Shown here one piece after another: positions 1 through 38,817 of a stretch of 38,817 bases of DNA. Position numbers and translations under genes: made by a program. This DNA is from Petrotoga sp. 9PW.55.5.1 (GTDB taxonomy: Bacteria; Thermotogota; Thermotogae; Petrotogales; Petrotogaceae), in contig NZ_AUPM01000002.1 of assembly GCF_003265365.1 (NCBI RefSeq), positions 10,556 through 49,372 of the forward strand, read 5' to 3'. The notes under the pieces are model-generated. The model saw nothing but the letters and a program-made list of their open reading frames with translations. It searched no databases and had not been told where the DNA came from. How positions within the stretch are numbered: the first letter of the stretch is position 1; each line of letters starts with the position of its first letter.

Positions 1-150
1 TGCATCCACCCCTTCGAGGAAGGGGAATAGAAGCGACTACCCCGTCTGCAGCATAAAACGCTGCATCCACCCCTTCACAGAAGGGGAATAGAACCGACTA
101 CCCCGTCTGTGACAAAAAGCGTCACAGCCACCCCTTCAAAAAGGGGAATT
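1..150. repeat. Tandem hairpin-rich intergenic repeat, left end
   Basis: Two near-identical units with a 61-bp period (starting at 1 and 62) are followed by a third partial unit from about 123. Each unit holds two hairpins: CCCCTTC-loop-GAAGGGG (loop variable, third copy shortened) and a second stem that is TGCAGC/GCTGCA in the first junction but TGTGAC/GTCACA in the next. The stem is kept although both arms changed. The CGACTACCCCGTCT segment links the hairpins. The array appears to continue beyond the window edge. The same unit occurs in reverse orientation at the right end. No coding potential was seen here. Confidence 0.9.
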
Positions 151-204: not shown

Positions 205-236
205 ATCATATCATCAAGAGGGGAATTTCTGTTACA

Positions 237-271
237 TTTACCCTTTCGAGGAAGCGGAATAGAACCGAACA
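237..271. repeat. Degenerate fourth copy of the end repeat
   Basis: The stretch CCCTTTCGAGGAAGCGG followed by AATAGAACCGA matches the CCCCTTCGAGGAAGGGG-AATAGAACCGA core of the left-end repeat, with two changes that weaken the stem. It lies just upstream of the phosphatase gene. It looks like a decayed unit at the inner border of the array. Confidence 0.75.
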
Positions 272-38714: not shown

Positions 38715-38817
38715 ATTCCCCTTCCTCGAAGGGGTGGATGCAGCGTTTTATGCTGCAGACGGGGGTAGTCGGTTCTATTCCCCTTCCTCGAAGGGGTGGA
38801 TGCAGCATTTTATGCTG
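38715..38817. repeat. Hairpin-rich intergenic repeat, right end (inverted relative to left end)
   Basis: ATTCCCCTTCCTCGAAGGGG followed by TGGATGCAGC-GTTTTAT-GCTGCAGACGGGG and TAGTCGGTTCT is repeated from 38777, a 62-bp period (one extra G in the GGGGG run). The sequence is the reverse complement of the left-end unit. The second copy is cut by the window end. It begins immediately after the NUDIX gene. Confidence 0.9.

Follow-up and report, generated by a model that had tools for sequence, protein, structure and literature searches.

The hairpin repeat that stands in opposite orientations at the two ends of the window (the whole stretch of DNA analysed, 38,817 nucleotides) is probably a REPIN-like, non-autonomous mobile palindrome. 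It would belong to a family that is spread across phyla and linked to a nuclease, DUF559, from which the copies found here have been orphaned; the part assigned to the nuclease is deduced from gene neighbourhoods in other genomes.

The window corresponds to C2:10556-49372 of a 2.08-Mb Petrotoga genome assembled in 79 contigs. Window positions 1-150 contain most of three modules of the repeat. The features of the two window ends, the modules among them being located with a covariance model of the module, are the following.

1..28, minus strand: module A (stem TGCAGC/GCTGCA), covariance-model match truncated by the window start; the whole module is C2:10530-10583
36..89 (C2:10591-10644), minus strand: whole module A, covariance-model match of 79.2 bits; hairpin 1 at window 70-86, hairpin 2 at about 46-65
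97..150 (C2:10652-10705), minus strand: whole module B (stem TGTGAC/GTCACA), 77.4 bits
153..214, minus strand: left end, inverted, of an IS3-family insertion sequence, with the terminal repeat TGATATGATACCTCCAAAGTAGACAC and a hairpin of its own
215..268, plus strand: module debris TCAAGAGGGGAATTTC...CCCTTTCGAGGAAGCGGAATAGAACCG, half a hairpin on the far side of the IS end, together with a degenerate unit
38715..38769 (C2:49270-49324), plus strand: whole module A, 71.7 bits
38777..38817 (C2:49332-49372), plus strand: module A, truncated by the contig end

The units of about 61 bp with two hairpins described in the initial annotation at window 1-150 are real, as the pattern of hairpin 1 has nine matches in the window against 0.08 expected from shuffled sequences. 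The reversed copies that it placed at 38715-38817 were recovered as one whole and one truncated module A. Its suggestion that the assembly broke on the repeats applies to the right end, where the last copy is cut by the contig end, and to the genome at large, where 42 of 78 clusters have a contig end no more than 150 bp away. It does not apply to the left end, where the palindromic element (C2:10441-10705) begins upstream of the window and is merely cut into by the window start. The IS end at 153-214 directly adjoins the module array and is 100% identical to the end of an intact IS at C4:10374-12068. No Rfam family matched the window above its gathering score, and a plasmid search with the window DNA returned no match.

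Genome-wide, the covariance model identified at least 145 copies of the module in 78-80 clusters, with inverted doublets, which agrees with the REP/BIME-type family proposed initially. The modules are intergenic, convergent gene pairs being the commonest setting (9 of 19). A five-module array at C60:14900-15060 (left part of L003) directly follows the apparent end of a CRISPR array with TTTTTATCCTACCTATAAGGAATGGA repeats. At three of four clusters tested (C10:95 kb, C10:119 kb and C2:10.4 kb), the flanks are far apart in the complete relative G002, so that no empty site could be demonstrated there. The aminotransferase and metallophosphatase genes that flank the element at the window start (C2:10441-10840) are found at 335 kb and 2115 kb in that genome.

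Each module consists, in order, of AATTCCCCTTC-NNN-GAAGGGG, which forms hairpin 1 (C4/G4), the trinucleotide TGG, hairpin 2, and GACGGGGTAGT. On the opposite strand, hairpin 2 reads CGTC-stem-loop-stem-NCCA. Among 113 such hairpins, the tag is CGTC in 87, CGGC in 21 (the C type) and TGTC in three, while the tail is TCCA in 85 and GCCA in 22, with 107 ending in CCA. Stem 2 comprises 6-7 bp, starting with a T-A pair followed by a G-C pair, and is closed by a loop of seven nucleotides. Its sequence defines three main types of module, A (TGCAGC/GCTGCA), B (TGTGAC/GTCACA) and C (TGCGAC/GTCGCA), and two rarer ones, D (GTCAGAC/GTCTGAC) and E (TTCGC/GCGAA). Tandem modules are most often spaced by 61 bp.

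The arrangement of the modules follows an orientation rule. Where both orientations occur in a cluster, they stand head to head in 25 of 26 cases; the single exception, on contig C9, consists of two elements flanking the remnant of an Rpn gene. Every one of the 25 facing pairs is a heterodimer, with a centre of 47 bp in 12, all of which pair A with B, and of 35-36 bp in six, which pair A with C or E. The complete element is predicted to fold into a large cloverleaf, with an outer stem, two hairpins and an inner stem formed by GGGGTAGTC and GACTACCCC; folding of the whole element gave a dG of -106.5 as RNA (z -11.3) and a z of -9.6 as DNA. At its foot the hairpin has CGTC or CGGC and no GTAG/GTGG head; the tetranucleotide GTAG is confined to the linker GGGGTAGTC.

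The compensatory change noticed initially between TGCAGC/GCTGCA and TGTGAC/GTCACA is genuine, both sides having changed at three of the six pairs of stem 2. Three pairs of this stem are altered on both sides between the A, B and C types, of which 68, 24 and 14 copies, respectively, were counted in the genome, besides the rarer D and E. As these few stem types account for the Petrotoga copies, independent changes of the stem within the genome must have been few; most of the variety lies between phyla. Covariation was assessed by counting and by shuffling on an alignment of 21 sequences that includes a few copies from related genera. In this alignment 84% of the cells pair and four of seven pairs show double changes. 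The covariation score of 0.374, against 0.209 ± 0.027 after shuffling, was reached in none of 500 shuffles, and slid structures scored lower.

An exact 29-mer of module A had no match in the collection of genome contigs; the shorter core of the C module did match, and at least 117 stretches of DNA, belonging to many phyla, contain an exact 22-mer of this module. The core AATTCCCCTCTTGAGAGGGGTG nearly always precedes a hairpin and GGGGTGTG, and the hairpins mostly differ, with 67 distinct sequences among 117 matches of the longer core pattern. The mean best stem of these cross-phylum hairpins is 4.4 bp, compared with 2.6 bp after shuffling. A fixed core followed by varying yet paired hairpins indicates that it is the pairing that is conserved and not the sequence, as had been proposed from the two copies at the window start.

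A gene of TnpA-REP or DUF559 type flanked by copies had also been anticipated. The first was not found in the Petrotoga genome with the RAYT profile (Y1_Tnp, PF01797), for which a control search was positive in five known genomes. DUF559 (PF04480) was likewise not found in this genome, and is flanked by copies in many others. The profile PF12784 had no match anywhere, so that its absence is uninformative. Of 16 genomes with the core, 15 also have DUF559, compared with 2 of 14 control genomes. In the 16 genomes, which were selected for holding the core, 24 standalone DUF559 genes have readable flanks; palindromes with C/G runs stand on both sides of 20 of them and on one side of another, and the density of hairpins in the flanks is 20 times the background. 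A second set was drawn to avoid this core-based selection, consisting of 14 DUF559 matches obtained in plasmid and chromid records by protein search alone. In this small set the density is 13 times the background, with palindromes on both sides of seven genes and on one side of four. The strict CGTC-hairpin-CCA pattern is enriched fourfold beside DUF559, at few loci.

Individual loci illustrate the association. In a Bacillota bin (L360), DUF559 lies between two modules of the Petrotoga design, which contain CTACCCCGTC and CCACCCCTTC and are placed head to head. In Deinococcus psychrotolerans, the paa operon contains, between paaD and paaZ, a DUF559 gene framed by inverted repeats; gene and repeats are both missing from the operon related to it in Deinococcus sp. 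QL22. In a relative from the Petrotogaceae (G008), two related modules directly precede the start of a DUF559 gene, on its upstream side only. DUF559 matches the solved endonuclease-like protein 3hrl. Neither the module sequence nor a link between DUF559 and repeats was found in the open-access literature, which was the part covered.

By analogy with RAYTs and REPINs, two modules with a DUF559 gene between them resemble an autonomous unit, of which the doublets would be derivatives. As the Petrotoga genome contains no DUF559 gene, the nuclease would not be available in trans at present. A wider proposal, to which we lend somewhat less than even credence, is that a trans-phylum set of repeats with C4/G4 plus CGTC hairpins has its dedicated mobilisers in the DUF559 proteins. 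Together they would form a non-HUH equivalent of RAYT and REP, DUF559 would be a candidate for the enzyme missing from the CGTC-tagged REPs, and Rpn, a related nuclease family, would have come to be associated with these palindromes in Petrotoga.

The Rpn link was examined with the profile PF04754, another PD-(D/E)XK nuclease. It yielded 22 fragment matches in the Petrotoga genome, or 21 fragments when two overlapping matches on contig C34 were counted once, and no intact gene was found with this profile in the assembly, which is fragmented into 79 contigs. Of the 21 fragments, 14 lie within 200 bp of a module, a zone that covers 2.2% of the genome (P 7e-19). Since Rpn fragments and modules both tend toward contig ends, these ends were also used as the null, which gave P 2e-4. 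Modules occur on the 5' and the 3' side of Rpn fragments. The junction between module and Rpn leader, GGGGAATT|TTACTTTC, is the same at several Petrotoga loci, and a similar one is found in another genus (G013), together with an intact Rpn gene that has module copies on both sides. Internal-deletion derivatives of Rpn that share one junction, from nucleotide 24 of the 5' leader to the last Rpn codons, are present on contigs C9, C54, C43 and C40.

Rpn itself, in place of DUF559, might therefore be regarded as the mobiliser in Petrotoga, module-Rpn-module being the autonomous unit and the doublets its derivatives. The proximity on both sides, the 5' junction common to two genera and the one-junction derivatives all speak for it, as does the finding that E. 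coli RpnA acts as a DNA endonuclease and stimulates recombination independent of RecA (PMC5350276). Still, we consider it unlikely. Rpn genes are intact in most of the sister Petrotoga genomes, where module matches are few and weak, most clusters here lie away from Rpn, and the current description of Rpn is that of a phage-defence toxin (PMC10327210).

Other observations were made on Rpn genes and their surroundings. Among other Petrotogaceae, in G007 (L093), an Rpn gene has different repeats on both sides, with palindromes GTAGAGACG..CGTCTCTAC, and in G011 (L092) a long direct repeat stands on both sides of the gene. Two Rpn subfamilies, one with L116 and L118 and the other with L095-L107, differ in their N-terminal parts and have nearly identical C-terminal ends, as if the C-terminal domain had been swapped between paralogues. 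At two contig ends (C51:31519-31568 and C3:116837-116884), the promoter region otherwise located before Rpn genes stands upstream of a different gene start (MGDSNIA..), once more beside a module doublet.

A second set of neighbours is of the IS3 family. The intact element at C4:10374-12068 (L039; NF033516, E 6e-82, E-values being approximate) occupies the loop of a module hairpin. On contigs C1, C34, C46 and C43 there are HP2-E-HP3 units, in which a module doublet replaces the transposase genes between IS ends. The unit on C1 (L121, C1:19199-19550) is 352 bp long, carries IS ends and interrupts an intrinsic terminator in its loop. At the matching place in sister Petrotoga genomes, the terminator is intact. 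This empty site implies that the IS has carried along some copies at least; as it belongs to an IS-ended unit, it shows the IS moving the repeat and is not evidence that the repeat moves itself. Several other IS ends adjoin terminator-like sequences. No consistent target-site duplications of the IS were seen by eye.

All copies could, on this basis, be passengers of the IS3 family, a transposase-less IS derivative having taken up the palindrome and the IS transposase having spread it into hairpin loops without any nuclease. The intact element in a module loop, the IS-ended units and the terminator-loop insertion with its empty site are what this explanation predicts, and we give it roughly one chance in five. 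It is at odds with the count of IS ends, which stand near no more than roughly one cluster in four and are absent at most others, and with the head-to-head rule and the module design being found also with DUF559 elsewhere, where the flanks read contain no such IS ends. The least probable explanation, that the modules are selected bidirectional terminators or RNA-stability hairpins beside which nuclease genes merely landed in intergenic space, fits the intergenic position, the frequency of convergent pairs and the interpretation of similar hairpins in Enterobacter 638 as terminators (PMC2869309), but a terminator needs neither a second hairpin with tag and tail, nor a centre of fixed length, nor a head-to-head rule, and inverted repeats flank a nuclease gene with a flank density 13-20 times the background.

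We thus favour the REPIN-like palindrome orphaned of DUF559. Two-hairpin modules of different types, facing each other head to head across a centre of almost constant length, would make up its replicating unit, and this unit may be extruded from single-stranded DNA as a large cloverleaf or cruciform. Against this reading stand the lack of a DUF559 gene in the genome, the frequent absence of the modules from Rpn genes in the rest of the family, and the lack of an assembled intact Rpn gene. We infer that DUF559 or Rpn acts on the module hairpins; DUF559 nucleases, of PD-(D/E)XK type, would recognise and nick them, letting the units copy or insert. The unit with DUF559 between two modules would be autonomous and the doublets its non-autonomous derivatives. 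DUF559 would then have been lost from the Petrotoga lineage, this loss and the order of events being conjectural, and the orphan copies may have spread or persisted as hitch-hikers, next to Rpn nuclease genes and within MITE-like units of the IS3 family, in the loops of terminators and of module hairpins.

Few repeats in bacterial genomes are as numerous as REP-like palindromes, and the partner enzyme of the GTAG-class REPs is the RAYT. If consistent across phyla, the link between DUF559 and palindromes would make the missing enzyme of the CGTC-tagged REPs directly testable. It would also give DUF559, a small uncharacterised nuclease, a first function to test, and would explain assemblies broken on repeats and possibly the position of the repeats at synteny breaks.

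The palindrome that flanks DUF559 is proposed here as a class, and is not an established family. Its closest counterparts are the CGTC-tagged REPs, which occur in Thermotogae too (K. olearia and M. prima) and for which no associated or dedicated transposase was found (Di Nocera et al. 2013; PMC3733652). The Petrotoga modules share with them the CGTC tag, the tail ending in CCA, the predominance of head-to-head dimers and, with some REP families, the heterodimers (PMC3733652). The tag variants of these REPs are TGTC and CCTC, and their stem has 8-9 bp starting with two A-T pairs and a loop of 4-5 (PMC3733652), whereas the stem has 6-7 bp and the loop seven nucleotides in Petrotoga, each module has an additional C4/G4 hairpin, and an association with DUF559 is seen. 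On account of the different stem and loop lengths and of the extra hairpin, the modules are called a variant, and not members, of the CGTC-tagged REPs.

The CCCTCTCCC(XX)GGGAGAGGG repeats of Enterobacter sp. 638, proposed to be terminators with no nuclease link reported (PMC2869309), resemble the modules in their hairpin with C/G runs, their number of about 100 copies and their frequent occurrence in duplicate or triplicate. IS1397, ISKpn1 and ISPsy8 are IS3-family elements that target REPs (PMC1525189). The Petrotoga IS is similarly found within a palindromic repeat, but it also occupies terminator loops, and its MITE-like derivatives carry the repeat. REPINs are extragenic doublets of inverted palindromes in high copy number, and RAYT genes are flanked by inverted REPs (PMC3116915, PMC2817692). 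The Petrotoga repeat is alike in its inverted doublets, which form the conserved unit, in its high copy number and, in other genomes, in the gene flanked by inverted copies. It differs by the absence of a RAYT (PF01797) in the genome and of a 5' GTAG head on the hairpin, and the gene flanked elsewhere encodes a PD-(D/E)XK nuclease, DUF559, in place of the tyrosine HUH transposase of the RAYT-associated REPs.
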